Source of the DNA: Cliona cf. orientalis
Lineage: Eukaryota > Porifera > Demospongiae > Clionaida > Clionaidae
Reading direction: 5' to 3'
DNA: 64,000 bases
Assembly: GCA_963930775.1 (NCBI GenBank)
Contig: OZ005689.1
Location: forward strand, 24,860,058 to 24,924,057
Shown here: positions 6,420-59,580 of the stretch, piece by piece
How the letters are laid out: each line of letters begins with the position of its first letter
Numbering within the stretch: the first letter of the stretch is position 1
Position numbers and translations under genes: made by a program
Notes under the pieces: model-generated
Database searches by the model: none
Seen by the model: only the letters and a program-made list of their open reading frames with translations
Told to the model about the DNA's origin: nothing

Positions 6420-9415
6420 TCGTGCAACGCACAGTAGGAGACATATTCCACATCCTCGCAACATTTGACTTGAAATAAAGGGATATTACCAAGAGTATAT
6501 ACTCTTGATATTACTGACAGACTCTCCCCATCCGAGTACCAGAAACAGTCTCAAAGGTTGAGACATTAAAAAGTTTTCCTGGGGGAGCATACCCCCAGAC
6601 CCCCCTAATATAATGAAGTTAATGAGCACAATATCATTCTTCACTGATGAAAAAACATACTATAATCTTTGCGCCCCCCTTAACTCTGGAATTATCGCGT
6701 TTGCCCCCCCCCCCTTGACAAAAATCCTAGTGAAAACCTGCTTTCCTCACTTAAGATGGCATTGAAGGGACCTACCAATCTAGAAGTATTCATTAGTCAA
6801 TCTTGCATTCCTCAAGAGCCACCTCTCTGAGATTCTAGGACTTTTAATTTCCTAGTTCACTATAGCTCGATCACTTTGCTGAACTTTTTGTTTCCTTTTC
6901 TCCATGCAGAAGGACTGGGCAGTGGCACTGTCGTCAACCTCGAGTCAGCCAAAGCCCTAAGTGCTTCATATTCTACTCGTACAACTCATCCAAGCATGGC
7001 AAGAGGACAGCTTCTCTGTCATCTACGTAGTTAAGGAGAGACAAGCAAGTCGGGCTACTCTAACTTGAAAGGTACATATAGAAATTTTTATCGTTTGTAG
7101 TAGTAAAGTGTGTATGATTTTACCGTATAACAAAGGTAGAGATATTAACTGTCCATTTTATGCTTGTAAACTATTGTACTAGACCATCCCTGTCAGAACC
7201 CTGTACACCAGTTAATCTGATCATACATTGATATCCTGTGAAAATTCACCAAACAAGTATCCTTATGTGCAGATCTATTTTGATGTGTGCTGGTACTGAC
7301 TGGGCATGGTCTTTGCAGCTGTTTCCATTAGCAACTTGACAGCATCACAATCATCCCAGCGTACAGGCGGCTATAAAAATCAGGTATACATGTATGTACA
7401 TGCAGAGATAGTATGCGGGCATAATTCTCGAGCAGTGAATTATAAAGAATTGATAATACCTAAGCCATGGATGTTAACTGTCACCACTACCTTATATTAT
7501 AGCCATACACTGTACATCATTGTTTCTTTATATTATGTGTATTTATCAAGAGGTTTACACTCTCCAAATTTTGTGTATAGCTGGGTCAGGATTAGTTGGA
7601 CTGATGCACATGTACTACACCCCAACTCAGGACTGATAAACACCTTAACCATGCATTATTTTGTTAGTGCTGCTCAAACCCTCTGTCTGATCTTTGCACT
7701 CAACAATATCCACTACTCCATGCTCAGCAGACACTTACCTCACTGCGGACACGGCACCGACCTCAACTACTGGAAAAGCCACTCTTGATATATATAGGAG
7801 GTGATTCCCTATAATTTGCTAGCTGACCCAGTATGATAACCTAAATAACTCCCCACACCATTGGAAAGCTGAAAATAACCCAAGGATTGACTGTACCTAT
7901 TGAAGGGTCATTGGGTGCATGTATACTGTATTCGCTCGATCAGACGCCACGGCTACTGTTTGTTTCATCGCCTGAGTTTGTGTGGCGTTTATTCGAGAGC
8001 AGCAACTATTCGATAGTGGTATTTATTAATACCAGTTAGCTGCCTGAGAGGCCATCCTTAGAGAAACGGTCGATCGACACCACTGAGCTAGGAGATTCTG
8101 GCCCTTTTCTGATGTAGATGAATGTTTAATAGAACTCGTTCTAGAAGACTACTAAATACTTTTCTTGTACCTGCCATGCCTGCCATTGAGAACAAGTAGC
8201 GAGGCACTTTAATGTGCTTCTCGAATAGTAGCGTGGCGTGGCTACTATTTTAGAGTGGCGACTATTTCGTTCAGCACTTCTGGAGGTGCGGCAACTATTA
8301 AAGTGCAGTCACTAATCGTGCTGTCTTCTACGATTGCTAGGCAGCTCTACACGGCCACTCCCCGGAAGCCAAGCCGACAGTTCTTTTATTTGAGGCGATT
8401 ACTCGAACTACTCCTGGTAATCGACAGGATACAAAAACTGCAGCATTCTTTCGATGCCTGCTACATTATTGAGTCAGCACGAGGTTGGTTGAGCTTCTCC
8501 ATTGCTCATGGCTTCTCATTTCTTCCACGTGGCATTAAGAACAGTCAATTATTGCAGTATAGTCACACCTACCAATTAAGCTTTCTTGTGAATATAAAAA
8601 CATGCTTTTTTTTGTTTATATGTTTATAATAATTCTGCTTCTATAGCATGGATACAAAAATAGCAATTAAGATAACTTGCTAACGTGCATGTACCCAGAA
8701 AGAACAAGACAACAAAAAGAAAAACATGACTAAGTTATAAAGGCACAAGATGACTACCACAAAACAGTGAGAAAATGGAAACGCTATGCATCTCAACGAT
8801 TGTGCAAATGAATGGAATGTAAACTTTTTATTGACCACTACTGTAACCATGAAGTGCGTGGGTGGATATTAAAGTTAAATTAAATAATGTAAATGATGTC
8901 AATTGTTCGGTAGTTATATAAAATATTTTTCAGACGATCATTTTTCTTATACATTTATAATCCGTGTCATTACATGAGGGCATGGATACGCATCTTGGAG
9001 GTGCCCAGTTGCTATGAACGTGTGGCAGGGGCAGAGACAAAGTGTCAGGATTGGTCAGAACTGTAGGGCTGTGTACACAAGGAAGAGTTGCCTCGGGCCA
9101 TAGAGCTAGCTAGAGATGCGTACGCATTGTTGGGCGATTGGTGTGAAGCGCCGTGCATTTCGAGAGGCCTGCTGAGCAGGCGTTAGCCACTGAGCCTCGA
9201 GTGAAGCAAGAGGCTAAATCTGTACGTTTTTCGTCATACCTGTCAATAGTCTGGTAGCAATGTTCGAACGGAGCGAGAATGTCGCCATTGCACACTTAGT
9301 TAGGGCAGTTGCTTGCAGTGAGGGGTGTGGCCTAGCGTCTATGCTATAATAGGTTCAAAGTTCATCCTCCCTCTGCACATGTGCATTGTACCATTTGTAT
9401 GGGCAGGATAGACTA
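6420..9415. other. No convincing gene; degraded repeats
   Basis: The longest open frame is plus 7306-7788 (160 codons). It has no domain, unusual composition and no splice context. A stretch at 7925-8260 has words (cgccacggctact, cggctactatt, gtggcgactatt) shared with degenerate inverted-repeat elements at 40445-40530 and 61076-61170. Nothing else is recognisable. Confidence 0.45.
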
Positions 9416-13488: not shown

Positions 13489-14750
13489 TGAGATTTTTTC
13501 TCTTCCTTCACTTCTCAATCAACTATTGAACATGCATTAGTGGAGTTTTCGAGACAGCTCAGGTAACCAGCGTCTAAACTGACCTGCGAATGAAGCCACG
13601 CCCCTCATTATATCGATCCTGAAGCTGGCTGACAGGCAAACTTGAAAGAAGGCTGCTTAGAACTAAGTAGCGACGAAAACCTTCTGTTTCGGGAGCATAT
13701 TTTATTGCCCAGTAAGCTTACTGCTGGTAAGTAGCCACAATAATCGACAATTCACTGAGCTCGATCAAGCAAGGTCCTGGCGCATGCGTGCTACTTACAT
13801 CGGTCATATGACATCACCATGGCAACACCATATGAGCATGCGCATTATATGACAAAAGTGCTAATCAGACACACCCACTCACAAAACGTGTTGTACACAC
13901 ACAATTAAATCGCTATCCTGGTAACACAAAACGAGCGTGCCACAGACGTGCGCACTCCAAAATGGAGTGGATTTCTGCTCAAACTAAGGTGAGCGGTCAT
14001 AGTAGTCTCGAGTTAGCCGAAGAAAACAGAAAGAAAGAAAGAAACCTTGACAAATGGCTACTTTTTTGAACATCTGGTTCTGGCATATACTATTGAATTG
14101 ATGGATGATCTCTTGTTAGATAGATAATTTGCTGTAGATTCTGATTTTGACACTTCGAAAGTTCACAAAGTTATCAGTTTTGAGATACATTGTATTTGGA
14201 TTTTTTGTAATGTATTATATATATGGAGTATCCGTACCATCCCTACTTATAGAGTCTACCGGCTCTATGATATGCATATTATTATAAAACCGCTTCCTGT
14301 CTCTCGTGTATTCGAGGCTCACTCAGGCTCGCCCCGAATTAATGTTCTCTCCATTCAGGCATCAATGGTTGTGAATTAACATACTTGGACAGTTCAAGCT
14401 CATAGAGCTAGGTTTTTACACAGTCTTCAACTATGATTACCACTCAGACTTTCTAGGATAATTGTTTAGATTTATGTATAGTCATGTAGCATTGTTACAG
14501 CAATCATGGTTAACGTTTTTGCCATATTTATTAATTATTACATTGTGGTACGTATTATATATGACATAGTACATTTCAACATTCTTTTCATAAAAATTAA
14601 TTATTGTACAACTTTTTAGTACTGTTTATTCTATTCCTATAATCAATAGACATTCTATAATAGTGTAGATTGCATTCATTGGTTGTGATGTTTTATTCAT
14701 TGTTGGCCATCACCTAGCAACCAAAGCAAATTTCCAGCTGTATAATGATT

Positions 14751-15161
14751 ATTACATCCCGAGTCCCAATTAGAAAAAAAAAAATTCGGCTCTTGCTATG
14801 ATGAAATTATGATGAAACCTATGATGTAATTGCTGTGAAACTGTTTCAAAATGTTTAGCGCACATGAAAGGTTGTTGGGACCCAGAATTCGAACCTAGCG
14901 TAGAAGAGATTGTGGACTATCGATGAGATATGGCGATTTTCTTAGTTCGCTTTCTTTAGTGAGCTCGCACTGGGGGGGGGGGGGTTTCCCTATTCAGTCT
15001 ACCACATGGCAGGAGGTTACGTCTGGGTCAACCGGCTAAAGCCGCACGCCCCAATATACGCGTATACGGAGCATGTGCAGTTTGTCGATATGTCCTAGTT
15101 CGAATTATGGCAGCATACAGTAAGCGCGGTGGAATACTTATGAGGGACTCGGGATGTAGTC
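14751..15161. mobile_element. Inverted-repeat element, tandem unit 1
   Basis: About 411 bp. The start (acatcccgagtccc) is the reverse complement of the end (gggactcgggatgt), so the unit has terminal inverted repeats. Contains gttgttgggacccagaattc and gtagaagagat, shared with unit 2. Confidence 0.65.
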
Positions 15162-15171
15162 TTAAGTTGTT

Positions 15172-15577
15172 CATTACGTCCAGAGTCCCAATTAGAAAAA
15201 AAGAATTCGGCTCTCGCTATGATGAAATTATGATGAAATCTATGATGAAACCTATGATGTAATCGCTGTGAAACTGTTTCAAAATGTTTAGCGCGCATGA
15301 AAGGTTGTTGGGACCCAGAATTCGAACCTAGCGTAGAAGAGATATTGGACTGTTCGATGATATCATTATGGCATTTCTCTCAGTTTGCTTTCTCTAGCGA
15401 GCTCGCTTTCAGGGCAGGGGGATTTTCCTATTCAGTCGAGCACATGGCAGGTGAAGGTCAACCGGCTCAAGCCGCGCGCCCCAATATTGTACGCGTATAC
15501 GGAGCATGCGCAGTTTGTCAATGTGTCCTAGTTCGAATTTATGGCGCCGTATTCATGAGGGACTCTGGATGTAGTCT
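15172..15577. mobile_element. Inverted-repeat element, tandem unit 2
   Basis: Head-to-tail neighbour of unit 1, with an extra atgatgaaatct repeat and other small differences. Ends are ccagagtccc and gggactctgg. The 96-codon open frame inside it is not convincing. Confidence 0.65.
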
Positions 15578-15898
15578 CTCATTATGAATAATATTAGCAA
15601 TTTATTTTTCTGTGGTTATGAGGTAATTATCTCCCCAGTAGCAATTTACTTTTCTGTGGTCATGAGGTAATTGTGGTGTAATCTATGATGAAATTATGAT
15701 GCAACCTATGAGGTAATTATGAAAACATCCAGGGCCTTGCTGGAGCCTTTCTGGGACTTGAAAGTCAGTAAATATGTAGAGTATCTTACGCGTGTATCCA
15801 GCGAATAGATTACAAGCTGAGCGCTACTTTCTCTGAGAAGCACCGTTGATTGAACTTCACGTGTTTGCTTGGCTTACGTAATGCCGTGGATAGCTCTT

Positions 15899-17110
15899 TC
15901 CTATTATTATATGAATACATAATATGTCAAATAGTACAGATATCCTTACGTTTGTCCACAAGTTGTGGGAACCATGTTTTCCCCTTGTCTTTCACTTGGC
16001 CTTCAGTGATCTTTTTCATCTCCCTAGCCACATTCTTTGTTCCTATGCATCAGCATAATAAACATTAATACAAAAATACCATGCCAAGTGTCATAAGAGT
16101 TAACTAGTCCAAGCGTTTCTCTAATACACTTGGCCACTTGCGCCTGGATGTCATCAACAACATGGAGACCTATATTTATATCGCACATACTCAATTCACA
16201 TGAAATTTGACACAAACACGAGAACTCACCTCGGTCAATAACCTGCGGCAGAACATCTTTGGTACAAGCTAACTCCCTCATCTGTGCAGTAGCAGGAGCA
16301 GCTCGAGAGATGGTGCTGATACCAACAATCTTGTGCGTACTGTGCCACATAAAAATTCTATTAACTGATGACAAGAACCCTAAAAGTTCTACGTGCACAC
16401 CTTCCAGACAAGCATGGCACTGTATTGTGGTATGCATTGGCCATGGAATCATGCCGTGCACCAGTAATGACCCACTAAAGTTGGAGGAACAATAAAATTA
16501 CAGTATTCAGTTTACAATCACTTGCACATGTACCTCTCCTTTGGTTGAGTACTCCGGAAGAGCTTGCATTTCTTCCACGCTAGCACGCATACTCATTTCA
16601 GCAGCTCTTCCAACTATTTCAATGTACCCTAGCTTTTGATACACTAAAGGTAGACAACAAATAATTATACCAGTACATATTTGTCAATCATGGGTAAGAC
16701 AACCTCGGCGGATGTAAGCATGACCAACAACTCCTACGCCAGAAAACATACTTAAGTGGGTATACTGAGAAGGCAACATCCCCGCACATGTGAATGCATG
16801 CACCATCCTAATATTATACAAATACATGTAATAAGTATTTAATTTTTTATGTTACATACTTTTGGTTCACTACATAGTGCCCTGCCAGCACACGGGAACT
16901 AGACCATGTACGTCTTTGCTGCTTACAGCGATGACAACAGAAAAGAGCTCGGATAGAGTGCCCTTTCTGGGACAGTAGTGGATTGACATACATGTACATT
17001 GCTAAAGTTTCACATTGATCTTCATATCTGTACAACAGATTCTAGTACCCAGGGAGCACTCGTCTTTCCACACGAGCATTGTGTTGACAGGCCTTCAACT
17101 AAATCGGAGA
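15899..17110. repeat. 1,212-bp near-identical duplication, copy 1 (partner 51247-52458)
   Basis: Every base lines up at a constant offset of 35,348 with no indel that I could find. I saw three substitutions: near 16241 (c/t), 16975 (c/t) and 17083 (g/a), about 99.7% identity. It covers most of transposase exons 2-8 and their introns. Confidence 0.9.
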
Positions 17111-17512
17111 AGCAATGTCGTTCCGTAATAAACAAAGACTGCTCCTCAGAAGAAGCACCATCAGTGTACATTCCTAAAATTAATAATAGCAGCTTATACT
17201 CACTGCTGTATTTGTAAATCCATGCCATAGCATTTTCCATAACTTACCACTGTTGCGCATGAAAGATCTAGTAGCTGGGTCAGCATTATCGCTATGGCCA
17301 TGGGGGTCAGGGGTCGGATGGGAGCCAGATTAAGCAAGATCGAGTAGGGCATAGACAAGGTTCAGGTTCTCGAGCAGAGGGGCTCCTGCTGGTGTCATCA
17401 ACCTACGGACGTTCTGTAATCTCTACAGAAAAGCTTGTTTCTCCTCCAGAGTCGTGAAGCTCAAGTCAAACCCGTAGTGTTCGCGTTTATGTTTCCTCAA
17501 AGAACTCGCCAT
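15899..17512 (-). pseudogene. Multi-exon DDE-like transposase, copy A (5' part)
   Basis: Eight minus-strand exons: 17248-17512, 16860-17173, 16704-16807, 16534-16643, 16401-16474, 16230-16339, 16080-16169 and 15950-16042, with GT-AG introns. Phases match throughout exons 3 to 8. Recognisable blocks in order: a basic start (MASSLRKHKRE); a Cys pair (TQCSCGK) and CCHRCKQQ; a TGARHDSMANAYHNTV block; THKIVGISTISR; QAQVAKCIRE; and SYDTWHGTKNVAREM. The last two resemble the core of DDE-type transposases found in many invertebrate repeats. Lesions: stops at codons 30 (17423-17425) and 61 (17330-17332) of exon 1, and an apparent one-base frameshift in exon 2 near 17032. Similarity to known sequence ends at 15899, two bases past the acceptor of what should be exon 9, so the C-terminal third is missing. 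The superfamily is not certain. Confidence 0.75.
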
Positions 17513-17710
17513 TTTCACTCTTTAATTAGAAATACCACGTATTTTGTGCTTTGTGAGCTTTATTTTGTGCTTCAGTAAGTGCAATGTGTGTATAGTGTAT
17601 ATTCATGGTATAGTACAGCTAGCTCACAGAATCTTGCTGCAATCCGTTTCCTATCGGCCATTTTCTGACCAGGCCACTCCCCTTTTATACTTCGCCTCCT
17701 CGTTTAATAG
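17513..17710 (-). promoter_or_regulatory. 5' region of transposase copy A, shared with copy C
   Basis: About 200 bases upstream of the start codon match 56781-56982 closely, including aatccgtttcct, cggccattttctgacc and ccactccccttttata. Similarity stops at cctcctcgtttaa in both. That marks the likely element end beside a TTAA-like site and places the promoter inside this block. Confidence 0.5.
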
Positions 17711-24998: not shown

Positions 24999-25198
24999 NN
25001 NNNNNNNNNNNNNNNNNNNNNNNNNNNNNNNNNNNNNNNNNNNNNNNNNNNNNNNNNNNNNNNNNNNNNNNNNNNNNNNNNNNNNNNNNNNNNNNNNNNN
25101 NNNNNNNNNNNNNNNNNNNNNNNNNNNNNNNNNNNNNNNNNNNNNNNNNNNNNNNNNNNNNNNNNNNNNNNNNNNNNNNNNNNNNNNNNNNNNNNNNN
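24999..25198. other. Assembly gap, 200 N
   Basis: Exactly 200 N, probably a nominal gap size. Flanks are repeat-like. Confidence 0.99.
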
Positions 25199-26678: not shown

Positions 26679-27694
26679 TCCTTCTCCTCTCTCTCTCCCT
26701 TTCTCTCCCTCCCTCTCCTTCCCTCCCTCCCTCCCCCCCCTCTCTCTCTCTCCTTCTCCTCTCTCTCTCTCCCTCTCCCTCCCTCCCTCCCTCCCCCCCC
26801 CCTCTCTCTCTCTCTCTTTTGCAGTTCAAGACTGTACCTAAAAGGAAGGGGGGAGGGAATTCATAACCCTCTCCCTCATATTCTATAATTAGAAAATAGG
26901 CTTAAGCATCTCATAGTTGGTTATGATTAAGTGATTTTGCATTACCCTACTAATGGTCAACCAACCTGAAATTGTACAACATTCAAGGTCAAAATACTTA
27001 TCAGCCATGAGCTGATAACAACATGATCCATTCTTATTACTGACATGCATGTACATCTGTTCTGTAGGGCAAAAGGGCCTCATAGGTAACACACACATGG
27101 GCGTAGGAAGATGTTCTAGATTGAGGGGGCAGAATATTTAATTGTGTGCAAAAAATTTCCGACCATGCCCACAGGTCGTTTAATCACGACCATTTTTGCA
27201 TAAACAAGAGTGTTTTTGCTGTAGCAATGAAGTAACAAGCAAGCACTACAGTAACTAAGTACATGTACTATTCTTACATTCTATGTAATAAACAATAGCT
27301 AGGCCTAGTACAGCCAAGGGTTTACATGTACATGTATAAGCCCTTGGTACAGCATATATTGACATGGCTGTGTTTGTGCACTACATGCAGCTTGTGGGGG
27401 CAAGTGCCCCCACTGCCCCCCCCCCCCCTTCACTACACCATCACCTATGACACATACATAGTCTCGTCCCAAGGCCTTTACCAGCATTTTAATGTTGCAC
27501 ACTGAAAAGCGGAAGGGCCTGATATCTAAAATCACATGCATGACGTATTGCATAGAAAGACTGTAGAGAAATCTACCAGCGATCAGGGTGGGCCAAAGGT
27601 CACCAAGATTTCGTGAGCTTCTGTTGCCAAGGATTGAGGTATGGCATTATTTTTCATTGAGAGAAATAATGCCAGATTGGTATAACACGATCTA
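26373..27694. repeat. 1.3-kb direct duplication, copy 1
   Basis: Starts agcatcca, ends cacgatcta. The part from about 26920 onward is almost identical to 29580-30379. Contains a CT-rich microsatellite (26641-26818) and a G/C-run element (27099-27440) with the same internal order in both copies. The partner is 29014-30379, about 2.65 kb downstream. Confidence 0.85.
26641..26818. repeat. CT-rich microsatellite
   Basis: Long polypyrimidine tract of (CT)n with CCT and CCCT interruptions; low-complexity open frames on both strands are artefacts of it. Confidence 0.95.
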
Positions 27695-29013: not shown

Positions 29014-30379
29014 AGCATCCAGATACACACACAATTAAGTCTACCTGGGATTGCACCACCAGATGTAAGGATAGCAAGTGGACTAGTGGTGGTTAGCTAG
29101 CAGGGCAGTGTAATGAAGGCTCAGCACAAACAATAGTACAACTTGTTACTGCCTGCAAAACCTTGGAATTTAAATCAATTTTGACTGGACCAATCATATT
29201 CTACAGATTCTAATCATTCACTAGACCTTTGGCCTGGTGTACAAGGGTGTATACTCACAATTATGCATAGCAACATGTTTTTCCATCTCTTGGGGGGGGG
29301 GGGGGGGCTTCTCTCTCTCTCTCCCCCTTCTTCTCTTCTCTCTCTCTCTCTCTCTCTCTCTTACAGTTCAAGACTGTACCTAAGCGGAGGGGGGATTCAT
29401 AACCCCCTCCCTCATATTCTATGATTTAAAATAGGCTCAAGCATCTCATACATGTAGTTGGTGGAGGGATCTACAGTAGCGTACAGGGAAATTGGCAGAT
29501 ACATGTATTATGCACTCTTGATGTAATTGAATCAAGTCATTCCGACTGATATGTTGGAGTGGGACACAGTGGATACTTAATTGAAATACTTTTCTCTATG
29601 ATTAAGTGATTTTGCATTTTGCATTACCCTACTAATGGTCAATCAACCTGAAAATTAATCTACTGTACAATATTCAAGGTCAAAATACTTAACAGCCATG
29701 AGCTGATAACAACATGATCCATTCTTATTACTGACATGCATGTACATCTGTTCTGTAGGGCAAAAGGGCCTCATAGGTAACACACACATGGGCGTAGGAA
29801 GATGTTCTAGATTGAGGGGGCAGAATATTTAATTGTGTGCAAAAAATTTCCGACCATGCCCACAGGTCGTTTAATCACGACCATTTTTGCATAAACAAGA
29901 GTGTTTTTGCTGTAGCAATGAAGTAACAAGCAAGCACTACAGTAACTAAGTACATGTACTATTCTTACATTCTATGTAATAAACAATAGCTAGGCCTAGT
30001 ACAGCCAAGGGTTTACATGTACATGTATAAGCCCTTGGTACAGCATATATTGACATGGCTGTGTTTGTGCACTACATGCAGCTTGTGGGGGCAAGTGCCC
30101 CCACTGCCCCCCCCCCCCCTTCACTACACCTATGACACATACATAGTCTCGTCCCAAGGCCTTTACCAGCATTTTAATGTTGCACGCTGAAAAGCGGAAG
30201 GGCCTGATATCTAAAATCACATGCATGACGTATTGTATAGAAAGACTGTAGAGAAATATACCAGCGATCAGGGTGGGCCAAAGGTCACCAAGATTTCGTG
30301 AGCTTCTGTTGCCAAGGATTGAGGTATGGCATTATTTTTCATTGAGAGAAATAATGCCAGATTGGTGTAACACGATCTA
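29014..30379. repeat. 1.3-kb direct duplication, copy 2
   Basis: Matches 26373-27694 with a shorter CT tract and an extra stretch of about 140 bases near 29450-29590. Confidence 0.85.
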
Positions 30380-30450
30380 GTCTCAAAATCATGCATATGA
30401 CAAACACCCAATCAAGAAATTCACTGAAACTTCCATAATATATGGGGCTA

Positions 30451-30746
30451 TTAGATCCTAGTTGTAACAATACTGTTATCTGATTGGTCAGGAGCAGGTA
30501 CCTATTTTTCATATAAACCTGTAAAAAGCTCATGTAAACCTGTAAATTTTTCATATAAACCTGTAAAAAATTGTCGCTTGTGGTTAAGACTGTTGCCAGG
30601 CAGCAGTTTATATGTCAAGCCTATGGGCATTGTTGCTAGGATCTAAAGTTGTTAAGACACTGTTTAGTCGGTTTCTACGTGATTTAGAAGACCTCAGTGA
30701 TCTTCGGTCTTCTAAATCACGTAGAAACCTCCTAAACAGTATCTAA
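30451..30746. mobile_element. Small inverted-repeat element, copy 1 of 4
   Basis: Begins ttagatcctagttgtaacaa, contains ctgattggtcaggagca and cctgtaaatttttcat, and ends with a long hairpin whose arms are gtttctacgtgatttagaag and its reverse complement. Copies 2 and 3 follow at once; copy 4 interrupts the Ulp1-like pseudogene at 37059. Confidence 0.8.
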
Positions 30747-30753
30747 CTATTAC

Positions 30754-31080
30754 TTAGATCCTAGTTGTAACAATACTGTTATCTGATTGGTCAGGAGCAT
30801 GTACCTATTTTTCTGTAAAAAGCTCATATAAACCTGTAAATTTTTCATATAAACCTGTAAAAAATTGTCGCTTGTGGTTAGGACTGTTGCCAGGCAGCAG
30901 TTTATATGTCAAGCCTATGGGCATTGTTGCTAGGATCTAAAGTTGTTAAGACACTGTTTAGTCGGTTTCTACGTGATTTAGAAGACTTTAGGGCTCAGTA
31001 GAACCCTCACTTCGCTCGGGATTCTACATAGAGCCCTTCGGTCTTCTAAATCACGTAGAAACCTCCTAAACAGTGTCTAA
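30754..31080. mobile_element. Small inverted-repeat element, copy 2 of 4
   Basis: Nearly identical to copy 1, with an extra cactcgctcggattcta-like segment in the hairpin loop and fewer cctgtaaa repeats. Confidence 0.8.
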
Positions 31081-31092
31081 CTATAATGTATA

Positions 31093-31297
31093 CCGTATAC
31101 GCGGAAATATTGGCGAGCATTTAATTTGGCAATTTTCGCCATCGAGCCGCCAACAAAAATATCGGCGGTTTTAAATTTGGCGATTTTTTCCTATACAATA
31201 GCGCGAAAAATCTTTCGCGCGCATTTAATTTGGTGATTTCTGCGCCGATCGCCAAATCGCCAAATTTAATGTAACGCCAATATTTCCACGTTTACGG
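31093..31297. mobile_element. TA-flanked MITE, 205 bp
   Basis: Ends ccgtatacgcggaaatattg and caatatttccacgtttacgg next to TA. Interior ttggcgatt and aatttggc repeats. The degenerate stretch 2812-3015 looks like the same family. Confidence 0.75.
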
Positions 31298-31410
31298 TAC
31301 TTAACCACATTCCAGAGTTTGGGACAACAGTTGTACACAATATTTGTTACCTCACCCTTTTCATGTGTGCACATTAGAGTTGAGTTACAGTTGGGGGGGG
31401 GGATATATAA

Positions 31411-31739
31411 TTAGATCGTAGTTGTAATAAATACTTGATCTGATTGGTCAGGAGCAGGTATCTATTTCCCTATATAAAGCTCATATAAACCTGTAAATTT
31501 TTCTTATAAACCTGTAAGAAATTGTTGCCTATGGTTAGGATTGTTGCTAGGCAGCAGTTTATATTATATCAAGCCTATGGGCATTGTTGCTAGGATCTAA
31601 ATTGTTGGACACTTTTTAGTCAGTTTCTACGTGATTTAGAAGACCTCAGGGCTCAGTAAAATCCTCGCTTTGCTCGGGATTCTACATAAAGCCTTCGGTC
31701 TTCTAAATCACGTAGAAACCTCCTAAACAGTGTCGAACT
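31411..31739. mobile_element. Small inverted-repeat element, copy 3 of 4
   Basis: More diverged copy of 30451-30746; the gtttctacgtgatttagaag hairpin is kept. Confidence 0.75.
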
Positions 31740-31868
31740 ATTATTTATTCACTTTTTACTATTGATTCTCATGCATACCTTATCTCACCTCATCATCAGT
31801 CCTAGATCCAACACAAGGAAACACACAACCTATAATAAATTATTGGCGACGAGGCTATTATAAGTTAT

Positions 31869-48534: not shown

Positions 48535-48837
48535 TATCTAGGTAGAAAATAGTATAGGGACTCAACAACATGGTGCTAAACAGGAAGTGTGATACAGGGG
48601 GGGAGGATGTTTGGGTTTGGATTTGGGTTGTGGTTGTGGTTGGATTAGGATTAAACGAGGAACGCGTGCATAAAATAAACCAGATTGCGCGCTTGGAGAT
48701 CGCACAGTCGCGAGGTTGGGGCAGGGTAAAAAAGGGGGAAGGCCTGGTACCAGAAGTTGGTTAGTATGCACCTGCATGCGGAGGAAGGAGGGAAGGACAG
48801 ATATTTACGACAAAAGGGAAATAATTCCCAAATGCAT

Positions 48838-49133
48838 TAGGCGTAGGAAGATGGTGACGGTTGGGGGGGCATTGTAATATTTGCGCTAAAGCGTGTGCAA
48901 AATTTTTGCGACCACGCCCACTTTGGGTGTAAACCATGCCCTTTTCGCATGAATGACAGTATCAGGTCAGAGTTTCTTGGTTGTAGCAATGAAGAAACAA
49001 ACAGTAAGTCGATCAGAACAGACTTTGCAGCTACTCGTTCTTGAACATTTCATAGTCAGGCCTATTATAGCATTGCTCTGGCTGTTTGGGCACTGGCCCC
49101 CTTCCTTGCTGGTTGGGGGGGCACGTGCCCCCG

Positions 49134-49167
<34 letters not shown>

Positions 49168-49181
49168 TCCTACGCCTATGA
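48838..49181. mobile_element. G/C-run inverted-repeat element
   Basis: Starts taggcgtaggaag and ends ttcctacgccta. Near the 3' end ggggggcacgtgcccccggt leads into a C-run of about 26. Inner words are shared with 27099-27440 and 29790-30130 (tgtagcaatgaag, cgaccacgccca), so this is one family in three copies. Confidence 0.7.
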
Positions 49182-49245
49182 GTTACTGTAAGTATACTAC
49201 GGCATCCACACTACATAAAACCTTACCTTTCTCTTTACTTGCCAG

Positions 49246-49359
49246 ATCACGTCCAGGTACCTGAGTCATGATGGGAGCTACCGTGACTACAAGTCAACCT
49301 TTGAGGCGGGCATGGTGGATGATGAGCCCGAGGCTGAGTTCCCGCCTGCAGAGTAGTAG
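49246..49359 (+). pseudogene. Isolated terminal exon, transposase-like tail
   Basis: After a good acceptor (tttacttgccag) there are 37 open codons and a TAG: SRYLSHDGSYRDYKSTFEAG, then an acidic Pro/Glu tail. It resembles a C-terminal exon of a mobile-element protein. No upstream exon on this strand is visible. Confidence 0.3.
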
Positions 49360-49433
49360 TCTGAACAGCTTTTTTTTCGTTACCTATTAATTTTCATAAA
49401 AAAATATGAACTTCTAATGTGCTTGGATATCTG

Positions 49434-49650
49434 TCCTTACATGCGTTGACCAGCGTAGTCCAGAGAGAATCCACAAGAGGGAATTTCCATGTGGTTACAC
49501 GAGTATCTGGTGTTCGGTGAGTGACTGGGTGACGTACAATGTACATATACATGAATGCATAAGGTTCTGCAATACTATGAACATAAAAATAGATCTTACA
49601 CACTAACCTCAGCCAAATCCTCATTCTGAACGTCATCGAAATGGAGCTGT
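49434..49650 (-). pseudogene. Diverged relic of transposase exons 11-12
   Basis: Minus-strand text has SSISMTFRMRIWLRL followed by a gttag donor, then RTPDTRVTTWKFPLVDSLWT. These parallel the STVTFNMRMNLAVLDW and RPDRHTPLKVLVKK...LW segments of copy B just upstream of it in the same orientation. Probably an older, eroded copy of the same family. Confidence 0.35.
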
Positions 49651-50361
49651 TTCTAGAGTGCTTTCCCTGCATTATATTTGTTATAATAGTCATAAAAAGT
49701 ATACTGGGTATGTAGTACATGTGTACATGTAGCATGTTACAAAACAAGAAATTTCTATTTGATGCACAGTACTAGCAATCAGCAATATGTACATGCACAT
49801 GTATGTGTGCATATGAATATACCTTCATATACATGTATTACGAATATCCACAAGCCATTGAAGTAAGGATCACCTAAACGCATTCAGCACACGGCAGAGA
49901 AGGTACATAATACTTATGGAGAGTGGCACCAGGAGATTCTAGCAAGAAAGGAGACATAACAGTACATGGTAACTGAAAACGGATACACAAATGCGACGTC
50001 TCAGAATGTGCATTGTCATACATTAATTTTTATAAGTAATACATATACACTTATCTTATGTATTGGACAGCAGTGCATATTCAGCAGAACAACTATGACA
50101 GGTAAGGAGTACAGGCAATTGAGTGATACACGAGACAACAGTTCCTAGCAGGATTCATGTATGTACACGTACATGTAATCACAGCTAGTCCTACAAGATA
50201 TATCTGGTGTACTTACATTTTTTGCAGGAAAAGGTACAACTCAGGCACACGTATGGTAGTGACTATTCAGCAAGAGTTCGAACCCCTCAGAGCTTAGAGA
50301 TATACAAATATTTGTCACATACATGTACATGGAGATACTAGTAGATTTAGCATGCGTACCT

Positions 50362-52458
50362 TTAGCACTCGTCTTCACTTTCATCTGTGTCTGATTCAGG
50401 TGGTAGTTGTTCCCCATCTTCAAACTCCTCTCCATCATCACCACCACCTTCATCTTCATCATCAATTTCCCTGTAAAACTTAAAATAAAATCATCTCTAA
50501 ACTGAGGTACAAAAGTACTTACATCAAGTCAACTTTGTTTCGAGTGACAAACATAGCCCAGAGCAACTCCACAAGTTGTACTTCTTCTTCACCAGCACCT
50601 TCAAGGGAGTGTGCCGATCTGGTCGCCTGAGGTCTTTCACCTTACGTACACTGGTGTAAGCACGATTCACGTTCTCATTCTGCAGTGTACATGTACAATG
50701 TCATGCGAAGGTATCAAACATCCTAACCCAGTCTAGAACTGCCAAATTCATTCTCATATTGAACGTCACAGTCGAGAAGTGAATCCGCTTTGGTAAGTAA
50801 GTCAACAGCTGATGATTGAAGGACTCTACCCAGTAGGTGTCACGACACTAGAACAGTAGACAGACATAAAACAATAATCCCATTGTACACGTGTGGTGCT
50901 CACTCTGTAAAAATCTTCAGCACTGCGGTATATATAGGTAGACTTCAGCTGTTGGCATAAGCTCTCGATGGCCTTGCTCGGTGTGTAGGCTGGCGTGTGG
51001 CAAGGGGAGATAGATGGGCATTTGGAGTGCTGGCACTGTGTGTGCACATGTACATGTACATGTACACAATTGTAAGTACACTGTCATTGTTACTATGGTG
51101 ATATGCAAGCCCTGTCATGAGGCTAGGCTCGCCCCAGTGAATGTGCAAAATTATATACCTGGTAGTGACAGGGGATATTCATGATCAATTCCTTGAGTTT
51201 ACTGGGTGAATCACTGCAATTCTTCATGGCCCAGTAGAGATGTATATCCTATTATTATATGAATACATAATATGTCAAATAGTACAGATATCCTTACGTT
51301 TGTCCACAAGTTGTGGGAACCATGTTTTCCCCTTGTCTTTCACTTGGCCTTCAGTGATCTTTTTCATCTCCCTAGCCACATTCTTTGTTCCTATGCATCA
51401 GCATAATAAACATTAATACAAAAATACCATGCCAAGTGTCATAAGAGTTAACTAGTCCAAGCGTTTCTCTAATACACTTGGCCACTTGCGCCTGGATGTC
51501 ATCAACAACATGGAGACCTATATTTATATCGCACATACTCAATTCACATGAAATTTGACACAAACACGAGAACTCACCTCGGTCAATAATCTGCGGCAGA
51601 ACATCTTTGGTACAAGCTAACTCCCTCATCTGTGCAGTAGCAGGAGCAGCTCGAGAGATGGTGCTGATACCAACAATCTTGTGCGTACTGTGCCACATAA
51701 AAATTCTATTAACTGATGACAAGAACCCTAAAAGTTCTACGTGCACACCTTCCAGACAAGCATGGCACTGTATTGTGGTATGCATTGGCCATGGAATCAT
51801 GCCGTGCACCAGTAATGACCCACTAAAGTTGGAGGAACAATAAAATTACAGTATTCAGTTTACAATCACTTGCACATGTACCTCTCCTTTGGTTGAGTAC
51901 TCCGGAAGAGCTTGCATTTCTTCCACGCTAGCACGCATACTCATTTCAGCAGCTCTTCCAACTATTTCAATGTACCCTAGCTTTTGATACACTAAAGGTA
52001 GACAACAAATAATTATACCAGTACATATTTGTCAATCATGGGTAAGACAACCTCGGCGGATGTAAGCATGACCAACAACTCCTACGCCAGAAAACATACT
52101 TAAGTGGGTATACTGAGAAGGCAACATCCCCGCACATGTGAATGCATGCACCATCCTAATATTATACAAATACATGTAATAAGTATTTAATTTTTTATGT
52201 TACATACTTTTGGTTCACTACATAGTGCCCTGCCAGCACACGGGAACTAGACCATGTACGTCTTTGCTGCTTACAGCGATGACAACAGAAAAGAGCTCGG
52301 ATAGAGTGCCCTTTCTGGGATAGTAGTGGATTGACATACATGTACATTGCTAAAGTTTCACATTGATCTTCATATCTGTACAACAGATTCTAGTACCCAG
52401 GGAGCACTCGTCTTTCCACACGAGCATTGTGTTGACAGACCTTCAACTAAATCGGAGA
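50362..52458 (-). pseudogene. Multi-exon DDE-like transposase, copy B (3' part)
   Basis: Twelve minus-strand exon segments: 52208-52458 (partial exon 2), 52052-52155, 51882-51991, 51749-51822, 51578-51687, 51428-51517, 51298-51390, 51159-51248, 50904-51035, 50728-50847, 50523-50679 and 50362-50470. The 3' exons missing from copy A are here: LYWAMKNCSDSPSKLKEL; a Cys/His segment (CQHSKCPSISPCH); YWVESFNHQLLTYLPKRIHF; MRMNLAVLDW; KVLVKKKYNL; and an acidic tail ending SDTDESEDEC. Lesions: exon 1 and part of exon 2 are absent (junction at 52458). The frame does not carry from exon 8 to exon 9 exactly at the 51247 junction. A one-base shift lies in exon 12 (about 50577). Function when intact would be transposition. 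Confidence 0.75.
51247..52458. repeat. 1,212-bp near-identical duplication, copy 2 (partner 15899-17110)
   Basis: Constant offset of 35,348 and same orientation. The right edge abuts the BEN-domain gene; the left edge falls beside a splice acceptor. Confidence 0.9.
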
Positions 52459-54574
52459 CTCAGCCATCTTATCAGATCCAGACAAGATAGAGAAGCTACT
52501 CAAGGATGACCTGGCGTACTCTCACACACAGAGGCCCAAAGAACAAAGTCCCCACTGTACTCACTATCTAGTTTGCTGGCCTGAAGAGGGAGACTCCCTG
52601 TCAGTTGTGGCTGTGAAGAAGATTGTGACCCCCAGGCCTGATGATTTGGCTCCAGACACTTTCTGCAAAGTAAAAGGTTTGGAGAAGTACCCATGTAAAG
52701 TGGTTGCAGTAGGCAGTCATGAATGACATGCAAGTGGAAGAAAAGGATTATGAACCCCGTCCCCCACCCAAGAAGAAAGCTAGAACTGAGCCACCCAAAA
52801 AAAACAGAGGTGGAAAAGAGAATCATGCACCACGTTCTGGCCAAGGGAAGGGTACATCTACCACGAAGAAGAAGGGCAGAATCATCATAGTGAGTGGTGA
52901 TGGTAAAACACCCAGTGAGAAACAGAGTGATCCATCAGAACAAGTATCCACTTCTCCAAGTCCAGCAGAGCAGTCTGATACAGCTAGTGATGGTAAAACA
53001 CCCGGTGAGAAACAGAGTGATCCACCAGCCACTTCTCCAAGTCCAGCAGAGCAGCCTGATACAGCTAGTGATGGTAAAACTCCCAGTGAGAAACAGAGTG
53101 ATCCACCAGAACAAGTATCCACTTCTCCAAGTCCAGCAGAGCAGTCTGATACAGCTACCACGCTGGAGGAAACCTCCAATTCTCTCTCCAAAGCACAGAC
53201 TAGTAACTCCACTGCACCCCTCGAACTTGTTCAACCCTCCCTAGAGCAGCTACAAGCCAACAGAGTTTCTCCGATCCAAGCTGACAACCCACGAGATGAT
53301 CCACATAATTGCTCACAAAAGGAAGGACAAGTCGACGATGAAGAACTGAAGGAAGATAGTGACGATGGTAAGATTACATGTATGTGTAGCATGCAATGCA
53401 CTAGACACACTCACGTTATTTTTACAGGTGCATGTACATGTACATGTGCATGTGCATACATGTACTTCACTGTGTGTGATTAGTGATCAACCTCTATCAT
53501 TGATTTTACAGGTTATCTGCTACTAAACTTGACAGTGGATAACAACTCTAAACGCTTGGAATATCTTGAGGCAGAGGTTGTCAAGCTACAGGCAGCAGGT
53601 AAGTGCACTAAGCTTATACAGTAATACATTTGATGTATTATGACTATCTAATGCTTATGTTTAGATGCAGACAAATCCAAGAGACTAAGAGAGAGGCAAT
53701 AGTGGCTAGACTGGAGACAGCTGTGCAGAACAGCAACTGTTCATTCCCCCCTCCCATTCCACCCAAGGGTATCCCTCCTGGGCCACCAAATGTAGTGACA
53801 TCCACTGATAGACTGGAGACTTCCCTTCACCTGCCTGCCATCCCACCCAAGGATATCCCTCCTCCACAGCTGAATTCAGTCTCAACTGAGGCTGGGGGTC
53901 TACCCCAGGATCTCCCAACTCCCCTACTTCCCAGATCAGAAACAAGCCCACCACCACTGCCACCTCCATTGCCACCTCTCGACTATAGACCCCACCCTAT
54001 TCCCAAGACCCCCCAGCCACCACATCATCCTCCACCCACTCTGGCCTACACTCCCTGTGCACCATGTCATCCTCCCCCCAGTCTGTCCCTCACACCTCAT
54101 GCATCAAATCACCCTCCACCCCGTCATCTATTGAGCACCCCACCACCACCACCACATCCTCCTCCTCAGCTTCCTCGAAGAGAATCTCGGGAGGAGGCAC
54201 CACCAACTCTGCCATCCTCATCCATCCCGAAGAGCAGTCTGTTACCTGTCAGCTCTGTTGTGCATAACTATGCTGATCTGGTTGGAAAGGAGGGGAAAAT
54301 GACAACTCTAGCAGTAGCTCTTGCCAGAGAAGCTTTCTTTGGGGAGGAGGTGATGGCTAAGTGTACGGCAAAGGGGTATGGTGGCAAACCAGGACTACCA
54401 CAGCAAGAATTGATGGCGTTGAAAGAGGAGATTCGCAGACTGTTCCCAAACTATTGGAATAGTCCACTGGTATTTGAAGAAAAATGGAATAAATGCTCTG
54501 AGCAAATCAGCCAGGCTTGCAATAGAGCAAGAGCCAAGAGGAGGAAGAAGGGTCTTAATACTAACACTGACTAA
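52459..54574 (+). CDS. BEN-domain protein, N-terminus missing
   Basis: Exons 52459-53367, 53512-53598 and 53665-54574, GT-AG introns. Order: a folded-looking N-terminal part (DPDKIEKLLKDDLAYSH, HYLVCWPEEGDSLSVVAVKK, YPCKVVAVG); a Lys/Pro-rich linker; three in-frame repeats of about 30 residues (GKTPSEKQSDPPEQVSTSPS type) at 52899-53160; an acidic segment; a helix (LEYLEAEVVKLQAA); a proline-rich region; and a C-terminal BEN domain (about 54270-54545: MTTLAVALAREAFFGEEVM, LMALKEEIRRLFPNYW, W..CSEQISQACNRARAKR). BEN domains bind DNA and repressors. Apparent one-base shifts occur near 52713 (just before MNDMQVEEKDYE) and near 53695 (RERQ to REAIVARLE). The 5' end is lost at the transposase junction. 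The gene may be a pseudogene or the indels may be sequence errors; a shorter product could start at ATG 52719. Confidence 0.75.
52899..53160 (+). repeat. Coding tandem repeat, three units of 90, 81 and ~90 bases
   Basis: Units begin gatggtaaaac at 52899, 52989 and 53070. Lengths are multiples of three, so the frame is kept. The second lacks three codons (the EQV segment). Confidence 0.85.
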
Positions 54575-54780
54575 AGTTAATACTGTAAGACTAAACAAAC
54601 ACATGCAGATTTACTATTAATATTGAAATTACTTGTCATGTTCATGCAACCAAGTATAATATTATTATGCAAACAGAAAGATGGGATGGCAATCTTACTA
54701 ATTAAATTTAGTTTGAGTACACACAAATAATTGAATAAGAAAATATGGGATGCATGGTAGTAGTTTTTGGATGGTCCAAG

Positions 54781-55866
54781 TTAATACCCAGTAGCAGCTC
54801 CTTCTAGTTCTATTACCTTGGGAATAACCTTATTCAAATGATTGATGTACCTGTTGCACTTTTCAATGCTGACAGTTTCCCAGAATTTCAAGATTCCATC
54901 AACAAGTTCTTGCTTTGTCCGTGGTTTCACCTCTCCGGCTGAATTCCTTTAACTCATGCCATAGATTCTCTATGGGGTTAAGATCAGGGGATTCTGCTGG
55001 CGTCTTCCACCAATTGATCCCATTCTCGATGATAAAATCTCTTGCATAGATAGACGTGTGTTTCGGATCATTGTCCTGCATAAATCGATGTGAATCTGGA
55101 AACTCTTTTTCGATAAAAGGAACGAGAGTTCTGTCCAGAATCTCAGTAAACAGAAACCTATCCATAATTCCCTCAAAAATACAGATCTCGGTTCTTTCTT
55201 TTCTCGAGATACCTGCCCAGATGTGTACTTTCACTGGATGCTTTGCTCTAGAAAAAAAAACAAAATGAGTAGTCATATAATTATGTATCAGCATACACCA
55301 GTGTGCTGGAACATACTTGTACATGTTCGAACGTACCTAGGCTTTGGCTTTGGGGCTTGGCCAATTTTGCGACAGCAAAATCGCCGGTGAGTTTCTAATC
55401 GTACAGTGGCCTCATCTGTCCAGATTACATCATCAAAATTGTCATCTTTGTATTGCTCACTCCACTGCAGATGCTTCACCTTGTTCGCTTCCCTGATTAG
55501 CTGACAGTAAGTGCTCCCTCGAAATGTCCATCCCAGCGTAGTGCGACAGCGTAGAACAGTTTTGAGCGAAATCTCAATTCCGTTCTCAACTAGTAAGTGA
55601 TGCAGTTGGTATGCGGTGGTCTCATCGTCTTTTTACATTTGTTCTTCGACAAGCTCTTTGACTTGCATGGTGACCTTAGAAAGCCTCCCTGAGCCTGGTC
55701 GTCTCTGAACTGACCCAGTCTCTCTGTATGTGACCAGGAACTTGTGGACTCCAAATCTGCTCACTTTTATGCCCTCTTCTTTTAACACTTTGGCAATAGT
55801 GTAGGGCCTAAGACCATGCAAGTGATGGTGGATGATCCTCAACTTCACGTAAGTGGTGTAAGGCAT
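54781..55866 (-). pseudogene. Tc1/mariner transposase, DD34E, inactivated
   Basis: Exon 55337-55866, intron 55248-55336 (GT-AG, phase 2), exon 54781-55247. The N-terminal helix-turn-helix is YVKLRIIHHHLHGLRPYTIAKVL. First Asp is in VIWTDEATVRLE. Second Asp is in FMQDNDPKH. The Glu is in SPDLNPIENLW, with 34 residues between the last two, which is the Tc1 signature. C-terminus ends ELEGAATGY and TAA at 54781-54783. Lesions: in-frame TAA at 55633-55635 (where Lys would be expected) and a one-base deletion near 54930 (FSRR to EVKPRTKQELVDG). An intron in a Tc1 transposase is uncommon. Terminal inverted repeats were not found by eye. Confidence 0.9.
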
Positions 55867-56101
55867 CTACATGTATAAACCAGAACAAAATCTCTTTCAA
55901 ATGTATTGATATGTGCATATAGGCATTGTCTACACAAGTAAGTTGGACAACTAAATACAGATGAGCTTGGCTTAGACTATAGTGATACAGTATGCACAGA
56001 CGACTAGTAACCACACCAATAGTGTACCTACCTTTCAGGTAATCGTCCGACAGTGGTAGATTCTCACAGGATCAAGTAGATTTCTGTCAGTTCTGTGACT
56101 G

Positions 56102-56335
56102 ATGTCGAACAAAAGCGTACAGAATCTCTGTAAAGATCTCCTTCTCTAGCGATTAAGAGTCGTTCACTTTGACACCTGCCACAAGCGCTCGATCGGCGTA
56201 CGAACACGCGGCTGACTGATGGTCGAACAAAAGCGTACAGAATCTCTGTAAAGATGTTATTCTCTGGCGATCAAGAGTCGTTCACTTTGACACCTACCAC
56301 AAGCGCTCGATCAGCGTACGAACACGCGGCTCGTC
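56102..56335. repeat. Tandem repeat, two ~118-base units
   Basis: gtcgaacaaaagcgtacaga through cgtacgaacacgcggct occurs at about 56104 and 56222 with few differences. Confidence 0.85.
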
Positions 56336-56515
56336 TTTGCAAAATGGTAAACGTTTTCGCAGTGGGCGGAGCAACGTACGAGGGTGGGACGGAATGGAAC
56401 GGGACGGAAACGTGCTTGTAGCAATCATTGAACGGCAAGTGGAACGGGCTCGCGTGCCGTCGCGATGGGACGGAACGGAACGAAAACGTCACCGTTTTTT
56501 TGACTCCTACTGTAC

Positions 56516-56780
56516 CACTGTTGTGCATGAAAGATCTAGTAGCTGGGCCAGCATTATCGCTATGGCCATGGGGGTCAGGGGTCGGATGGGAGCCAGATTC
56601 AGCAAGATCGAGTAGGGCATAGACAAGGTTCAGGTTCTCGAGCAGAGGGGCTCCTGCTGGTGTCATCAACCTACGGACGTTCTGTAGTCTCCGTAGAAAA
56701 GCTTCTTTCTCCTCCAGAGTCGCGAAGCTCAAGTCAAACCCGTAGCGTTCGCGTTTACGTTTCCTCGAAGAACTCGCCAT
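56516..56780 (-). pseudogene. Transposase copy C, isolated first exon
   Basis: 88 open codons from MASSSRKRKRERYGFDLS to HNSG match exon 1 of copy A without its two stops. After the point where copy A has its donor (g|gtaagttatgg) this copy reads g|gtacagtagg and is unrelated thereafter. Open frame continues to 56271, but that part lies in tandem-repeat sequence. The 5' flank (56781-56982) also matches copy A, so promoter and exon 1 moved or survived together. Confidence 0.7.
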
Positions 56781-57286
56781 TTTCGCTCTTTAATTAGAAA
56801 TACCACGTGTTTTGTGTGTTGTTAGCTTTATTTTGCGCTTCAATAAGTGCGATGTGTGTATCGTGTATATTCATAGTACAGCTAGCTTGCAGACATTTTT
56901 GAATCTTGCTGCAATCCGTTTCCTGTCGGCCATTTTCTGACCGGGCCACTCCCCTTTTATACTCCGCCTCCTCGTTTAAGAAGAATAGTGTATACCTATG
57001 CCACTGCTTGATTTATAATAGGTGGGATTTAGCGATACTATATCCCTACGCTATTTTCCACCTACATGTATATACATGTGTTACATGTGTGTAAGCATAC
57101 ATACTATATCTAGCTACCCCATTTTCAAGTGGGTGATTTGTTTATACTAGCTAGGGAGAATGGGATCTGGAGTATCAAGATTCATACAGCTTTTTTTGCA
57201 TGCAGCTACCCAATTATTTTAACAAAGCTGTAAGTTAGATTGGATTGGATTGATGTGCATTTATTAGGGATCTGAACTTTAAGGTC

Positions 57287-59580
57287 ATGCCAGGTTGTCG
57301 AAGTTGTACTGGGACTGGACGCCACAATAAATCACGTATTGGAAGGATTAGGAAGCGGCATTTCAAGGTAAGCAGTTAAAGTAATTGTTGGAGTTTGGGT
57401 TTACCTTGTTTATCCTATATTCTGAGGAGATTGTACAAGTCCATATCTAAGGATGGATGGCATGATAATACTCAACCTAGTCAAGAAATCCAGCTTTTCA
57501 AGGTGCAGCGACAAAGTGATGGAGAGCCTATCGTTATGACTCCTTATTGCCAAAAATTGCACCTGGAGAGTCTATATTCATGGTCGCCTGGTTGAAAGTT
57601 GTCCAGCATTGTCGGAAATTCCCAAAGTATTGACAAAAAATGAAATGTGTGTGTTGGCCAGGCGGACGCCAAATTCGTTGACGTTTGTGTTGTTAAAAAT
57701 GGGCAAATTCTTTCCCATAACAAGCAGGTGGTCGTGTACTTGGATTCTACAGCTTGTGTGTCTGATGGACAGACGTATACCAAAACTGCGTGACGCTGAA
57801 TGTGAAATGCTGGTGCTTGGAATACATGTAAATGTGCTGGTCACAGGGACAACCTGAGAGCAATATCTCGTAATCATTCATTAAGAAAAACCCAGACCAA
57901 GTACTCTAAGCACACTAATTTGAGATACATGAGGAGCCCACAGAAGGAGTGTAGACTCCGAGTTCTTCAACAATCATTGCATAATAAGAAGAGACAATTA
58001 CAATATCTTAAAAGCAAGTTGAAGAAATTAATGGCAAAGGAGGGGTTAGAGATTTCAGAAGAATTGCAATCCAACTTGTAATCGGTTATTTGCCATCATC
58101 GGTCACAGATTGAGGAGTTAGCAAGTAATGATTTCAGAAAAATCTTTGGTAGCTGCAGCCAAGAAGACGAGTGCCAGATGGCACCCTCTCTTTATCCGAT
58201 GGTGTTTGAGCATAATGCTCTCTAGTCCAAAGACACATGACATCATCAGGGACTCAGAGTTCATATCACTCCCTTGTAGAGGTACTCCCCGTGACTACAC
58301 TAACTGGGTTAAGGCTGAGCCGGGATTTCAATCTGAGATCACAAGTTTGTTGCTAAAGGAGGCGAAGGTGGATGCATTGTCCGATTCCAAAAGGTAAGAA
58401 AGTAATGCCTGCACCTGTAACTATGACTACATAATTATTATGTGGTTAAGGAGTACTAAGGTCACCAGACATGTTAACTGTTGTGTAATTGTTGTGGTAA
58501 CAGCTGCAGCTGCAGCGCAGCTAGGTACGTTTGACTGAAATTAACAATGGTCATTATTACGGGTCTAGCCCCTGACTGCAAACATGTATACATTGTTTTG
58601 GGGGAGGGGTGGTACATGTATATGTACCAGTGTGTATATTCTTTCCACTCTTATACATCATAATCTTGACCCTATAGACACGTGGTTCTTCTCATGAATG
58701 AGATGAAGGTCAGGGAGGATCTGGTGTTCGATAGAAATGGTGAAATTATTGGATATGTTGATGTTGGAGATATCAACAACCATGCAGTTAAAGAAGCTGG
58801 AGAAAAGCTGTATGACACATGAATAGCAATAAATGAGTATGCAGCATTGTACCACCGCCTTTCCCATATTTTTGCACCGAAAACCACAGGACAGGGCCTA
58901 TAGGTATGAGGCTGCAAGCACTGTGTTGGAAAGAGTCGTCACATCATGAAACCGCTACATGTGTGCCTCATAGTGTTGCAATACTACGCTATAGTGGCTA
59001 CAGGGCGCGCGGGGTATGTGCTCTACAGAGCTCTAGTAGGTAAAGTAACAGATGGGGCAGAAGATGCTGCAGAGTCAGCAACTCATATTAAAATTTTTAT
59101 GTGTCATGGTTCAAGGAATCTTCATCAAATTAGAGTTTCCATTAGCTCATTTCTCCGCCCATGGTATGTGTGCTCTTGGTGTGTGACTTGTGTACATGTA
59201 GGTATTAATGGAACTGTGTTGTAGATGTTACAGAAAGTCAGTTGCACGATATTGTGTGGGGCTCAATTCGCCGTCTACATGAGATTGGACTAAATGTGAT
59301 CTGCATTGTGGCTGATGGCGCAAAACAGACGGTTCATAAAGGACCACTCACACAAGGAGGGGACAAAGAATATGGCATTGTCTATAAAGCAAGAAATATC
59401 TACAACCCTACCATGTTTGTCTACTTCATGTCTGATGTCCCCCATTTGATTAAGACAACAAGAAATTGCTGGTTGTGTTCCCAGTTTGGAGGGATACATT
59501 GCCTTTGGGTATGCAAACCACCAACCATCAACTATGTATGCACACACACATACATGCATAATCATGTAGGGTTTCTTTAA
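57287..59580 (+). pseudogene. P-element/THAP9-like transposase, decayed
   Basis: Segments in family order. First exon 57287-57367 is MPGCRSCTGTGRHNKSR and is followed by a gtaagc donor; I do not see a full THAP finger. WRVYIHGRLVESCPALSEIP is at about 57560-57625. A coiled coil (NKKRQLQYLKSKLKKLM) is near 58000. RWHPLFIRWCLSIML, SLPCRGTPRDYTNWVKAEPG, then after an intron (donor 58396, acceptor before 58679) VVLLMNEMKVREDLVFD and GEIIGYVDVGDINNHA follow. After another intron come ICIVADGAKQ and YFMSDVPHLIKTTRN. These are the core blocks of P-element-type transposases. Lesions: stops near 57810, 58078 and 58822, frame changes near 58080-58130, and Asn in place of the usual Asp before Glu-Met-Lys. 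The C-terminal part is absent. Confidence 0.8.

Follow-up and report, generated by a model that had tools for sequence, protein, structure and literature searches.

Results

The window, by which we mean the whole 64,000-nucleotide stretch analysed (contig C1, 24860058-24924057), holds two insertions of one kind of DNA transposon, here called A and B/C, whose gene reads on the minus strand (Table 1). When the sequence of A was compared with the genome (216.8 Mb in 149 contigs), at least 40 matches were found at E <= 0.001, many of them short, and 15 matching places besides the window were taken with their flanks (L009 and L012-L025). In the aligned ends the element is bounded by TTAAACGAGG at one end and by CCTCGTTTAA at the other. 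Its termini inside the TTAA read ACGAGG...CCTCGT, and among the ends shown TTAA is present at 14 of 15 right ends, L022 being the exception, and at all nine left ends. The length between the TTAA-flanked ends is about 4.9 kb in L012. At L024, element ends lie at 2067 and 7330, 5.3 kb apart, with the same 25 bases after each, which is probably a local duplication of an end together with its flank.

No Pfam match above the cut-off was obtained for three joined-exon pieces of the transposon protein. L012 contains the string DTWH, which is of the C/DxxH type. Kolobok elements have a DDD/E transposase with a C/DxxH motif, and an excerpt of PMC9587614 describes Kolobok termini as 5'-RR...YY-3'. The TTAA at both ends of our element and its DTWH string would recall Kolobok, whereas its termini, AC...GT inside the TTAA, do not fit and Pfam lends no match. 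Because these termini break the RR...YY rule as worded in that excerpt, we leave the transposon unclassified.

Other repeats are present in the window. Two segments of about 760 bp in direct orientation, 2.7 kb apart (26934-27694 and 29616-30379), are 97% identical and preceded by further similar stretches, which suggests a local duplication, and at 30450-31750 repeated and inverted segments are clustered, including a unit in three copies and hairpin-like arms.

Table 1. Features of the two transposon loci and their surroundings (window positions)
Feature	Position	Strand	Basis
High-copy repeat with internal tandem units, left of A	14748-15894		cut by junction with A
Copy A, mosaic 5' portion of the TTAA transposon, 3' part missing	15894-17707	-	intact TTAA at 17704-17707
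Shared block in A	15899-17110	-	3 mismatches to 51247-52458
Interval containing the right limit of the young, B-like tract in A	17111-17418	-	private sites, triplet tests, shared-state split
Old end of A	17419-17707	-	14 A-private changes and 5 sites without the state of B/C and L009, at 259 usable sites
Assembly gap (200 N) between A and B	24999-25198		sequence
Copy B, comprising the middle and the 3' part of a near-complete element	48651-52458	-	TTAA terminus at 48651
Shared block in B	51247-52458	-	window self-comparison
Tc1-type mobile element inserted in B/C	52459-56512		CTACTG end next to TA (56513-56514); left end missing
BEN domain frame (PF10523) in the inserted element	53612-54574	+	Pfam
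Tc1-type transposase frames, PAX-like N-terminal part, DDE_3 (PF13358)	54899-55866	-	Pfam
"Copy C", 5' end of B's element: exon 1 and upstream part	56513-56979	-	TTAA terminus at 56976-56979
Right flank of B/C, also beside L009 (C1:35.91 Mb)	56980-57919		sequence comparison

B and C are one TTAA-flanked DNA transposon, 48651-56979, split by a mobile element. In the initial annotation C was treated as a separate copy and B was taken to start at 50362, truncated in exon 2; B instead runs to its own TTAA terminus, and C is its 5' part on the other side of the insertion. Apart from the insertion, 134 bp (equivalent to 17111-17244 of A) that are present in L009 and in A are absent from B/C, and B has an 11-bp deletion at the left edge of the block described below, the stretch being intact in all six other copies shown. 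B/C and L009 have 0.94 kb of right flank in common, and L009 is a partial copy of the B/C locus without the Tc1-type insertion, as shown by its left limit, which corresponds to position 50859 of B. In L009, a run of 23 N (8006-8028) lies just beyond the end of the match to this flank, hiding the true extent of the segmental copy.

The inserted element resembles Tc1/mariner elements in its DDE transposase (PF13358, E 4.3e-14) and its TA target, as seen from the CTACTG-TA end and from L026, a copy that keeps both inverted ends; unlike them, it also encodes a BEN domain, in a second frame that lies on the opposite strand. Positions 52473-56514 are 97% identical to L026, and most of this sequence is also matched by L027, by L028 and by two places on C5. 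The three copies taken (L026, L027 and L028) are 93-97% identical to the inserted element of about 4 kb. Judged against L026, the insert in B would lack roughly its first 280 bases.

Copy A is longer than was first described. Its 5' side does not end at 17512 but at the intact TTAA terminus, and its left edge lies at 15894 rather than 15899, with 15894-15898 being part of the 11-bp stretch that B has lost. At this edge A meets, with an overlap of about 1 bp, a repeat that has at least 155 matches in the genome. The eight copies of this repeat shown (L029-L036) run on past A's junction point, ruling out that the left break of A is a natural end of the neighbouring repeat. Genome searches that allowed up to 3 mismatches gave a single hit for the left junction of A and a single hit for the junction between B and its insert, so these are not inherited features of a subfamily.

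Self-comparison of the window bore out the reported near-identity of A and B over about 1.2 kb, with three substitutions at a constant offset of 35,348: the 1,212 bp of 15899-17110 align to 51247-52458 with 3 mismatches and 0 gaps (99.75%). This identity is above the family background: against six full or near-full copies (L012-L017), A shows 69-129 differences within the block (5.8-10.8%), and against L009, the next closest after B, 10 of 1,202 (0.8%); against L018 the figure is 101 of 1,193. The edges of the block have unrelated origins. The right edge, at 17110/52458, is due to the insertion and the 134-bp loss in B/C, while the left edge combines the 11-bp deletion in B with the junction of A to a different repeat. 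Thus the argument that two opposite truncations jointly make up one element fails, B being an almost complete element that an insertion has divided.

To the right of the block A departs from B/C. Over exon 1 and the upstream part (17246-17707), A differs from B/C at 26 of 457 sites and from L009 at 32 of 457, B/C and L009 differing from each other at 8 of 466; the earlier remark that A and C are far more different in exon 1 therefore holds. Private changes of A were counted at those 1,559 of 1,771 sites that are uniform among the six copies L012-L017: there is 1 in the block, none in 17111-17245, 1 in 17246-17364 and none in 17365-17418, whereas 17419-17707 has 14. With all A positions, not usable sites alone, as denominators, this gives 2 of 1,466 in 15899-17364 versus 14 of 343 in 17365-17707 (Fisher p 5e-9). 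In 17111-17245 the absence of private changes extends over 119 usable sites, with P about 1e-4 at the rate of the old end. Immediately beyond, A differs from B/C at 3 of 87 sites in 17246-17332, which is above the in-block rate, and then come 86 bp (17333-17418) without a difference between A and C. A and B/C also share three derived substitutions as well as deletions of 25 and 9 alignment columns, both of which are missing from L009.

The old end was compared with 15 copies (B/C, L009, L012-L022, L024 and L025), L023 being left out as it is without that part. A lies 8.5-13.0% from the 14 of these 15 with sequence in 17419-17550 and 5.9-10.6% from the 13 with sequence in 17551-17707; over 17419-17707 as a whole it is about 8-12% from each copy reaching there. 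B/C is slightly closer than the rest (13 of 132 and 10 of 152 in the two parts), and no close relative of this end was found among the copies compared. From 16673 rightward, twelve changes set A apart from all 15 copies, ten of them at or beyond 17419. Changed CpG bases amount to 0 of 64 in the young part of A versus 7 of 44 in the old part; CpG decay as the sole cause of the divergent end is ruled out by the 7 of 14 private changes that lie outside CpG. As these site patterns show, A is a chimera, belonging to the recent lineage of B up to about 17,400 and consisting of old sequence from there to 17707.

Several comparisons bear on where the young tract ends. Among 44 sites at which A shares the derived state of L009 (and of B/C where sequenced), 42 lie at or left of 17267, whereas five of the six sites at which A is without the state of B/C and L009 fall in 17419-17707, a separation reached in 1 of 20,000 permutations. 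The shared-state sites alone split at 17220/17256, and two derived states common to A, B/C and L009 (17544 and 17576) are found inside the old part. We ran 252 triplet tests on nine copies with 2,000 permutations each, which ignore relatedness and are uncorrected for the number of tests. Among the best 30 of the 252, there are 16 triplets whose signal none of the 2,000 permutations reached, and A is part of every one of them; weaker signals without A exist among the same 30, for example for L012 and L014 at 16056 (1 of 2,000 each). When B/C was tested against A and one of L012-L017, all six triplets split between 17402/17404 and 17419, and a seventh, against A and L009, split at 17014/17256 (4 of 2,000 permutations). 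Triplets testing A or L009 gave splits from 17,034 to 17,594. In trees, A groups with B/C in the shared block (support 82), while B/C groups with L009 and without A in 17419-17707 (support 98) and in 17246-17707 (support 90). The likeness of A to B had been taken to end with the block, at 17110. The B-like tract instead reaches to somewhere in 17,221-17,418, where we place the right border of the exchange with uncertainty.

Discussion

Two alternatives had been offered for the near-identity of A and B, a very recent non-allelic exchange and an assembly join error. The site patterns that mark A as a mosaic speak for the former; the latter is disfavoured. We consider it highly probable that part of A was overwritten from the B/C lineage by non-allelic exchange. 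Since B/C and L009 belong to one lineage, both in the block and at the right end, and have 0.94 kb of right flank in common, the sequence of B/C would be at home at its locus and A would be the recipient. The B-like tract passes 17110 and carries no private changes in 17111-17245; the exchange would therefore have preceded the interruption of B/C, or the donor, for example an allele, would have been without the insertion.

Break repair is presumably the mode of this exchange, and the version that we favour takes a single step and strikes us as about as likely as not. In this version A would start as an old, decayed insertion of the TTAA-flanked transposon, and a break in it, or a gap repair aborted after an excision, would be mended with B/C as the template. 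On its right-hand side the broken end would invade B/C within exon 1 through homology, synthesis would run leftward for about 1.5 kb, covering 15894 to about 17,400, and the new left end would be joined without homology to the nearby high-copy repeat. The end-joined border may have been made in the exchange itself or later. The 4-kb Tc1-type insertion with its deletion in B/C and the 11-bp deletion at the other edge would have followed, and these would have trimmed the remaining match between A and B to 1,212 bp. A more specific scenario, which we regard as unlikely, is that A is the outcome of an interrupted gap repair: after a transposon excision, resynthesis would have begun on A's own sister, changed to B/C, 35 kb away, as template and been closed by end-joining.

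The mosaic would fit equally well with an exchange in two steps, in which ectopic gene conversion of a longer A from B/C was followed by a separate deletion that brought A up against the repeat to its left, and indeed the left junction resembles simple end-joining. We count this within the exchange reading and hold it to be somewhat unlikely, given that it requires two events in place of one and that no remnant of the 3' part of A turned up elsewhere in the window. That A and B are sister insertions of one recent burst, damaged separately and never exchanged, is extremely improbable. Other pairs of the family are indeed nearly as close in the block (L012-L014, 7 of 1,261; L013-L015, 9 of 1,237), but their right parts are equally young (5 of 461 and 10 of 460), whereas a common burst would leave unexplained the right end of A, with its differences from B/C on both sides of 17550, in one and the same insertion. 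The mosaic contradicts such an origin unless a local mutation process accounts for the 14 private changes, of which half lie outside CpG.

An assembly error, by which one element or one allele was put at two loci, is very improbable, even though a gap of 200 N separates A from B. Three differences in 1,212 bp are within ordinary allelic variation, and a short-word assembler could have switched in the 86 bp over which A and C are identical. Against this, the left junction of A and the right junction of B, with about 1 bp of overlap and each found once, cannot be made by overlap misjoining, and A holds the 134 bp that B/C is missing. The flanks of A have no match to those of B among the self-comparison matches listed, which also rules out a contig overlap across the gap. 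As for gaps in general, the window has this one, and the 232,325 bases of L009-L038 contain a single N run, of 23.

The exchange that we favour is clearly of an ordinary, known kind. Ectopic, or non-allelic, gene conversion between dispersed transposon copies is a known process, and A and B/C resemble its products in having a tract of near-identity at two loci and a breakpoint inside homologous sequence. The difference is that A has one homologous border, and at the other it abuts a repeat to which it is unrelated. Synthesis-dependent strand annealing followed by end-joining, and interrupted gap repair after transposon excision, are likewise known, and with these A would share, on one side, a change of template to another copy and, on the other, non-homologous joining. 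If the interrupted gap repair were true, template switching between copies would make new mosaics in the TTAA family. The present case adds one tract with a mapped border region and changes no general view. It illustrates that neighbouring transposon copies can seem freshly duplicated or mis-assembled when one of them is partly overwritten, and that dating a single segment can give a wrong age for the remainder of an element.
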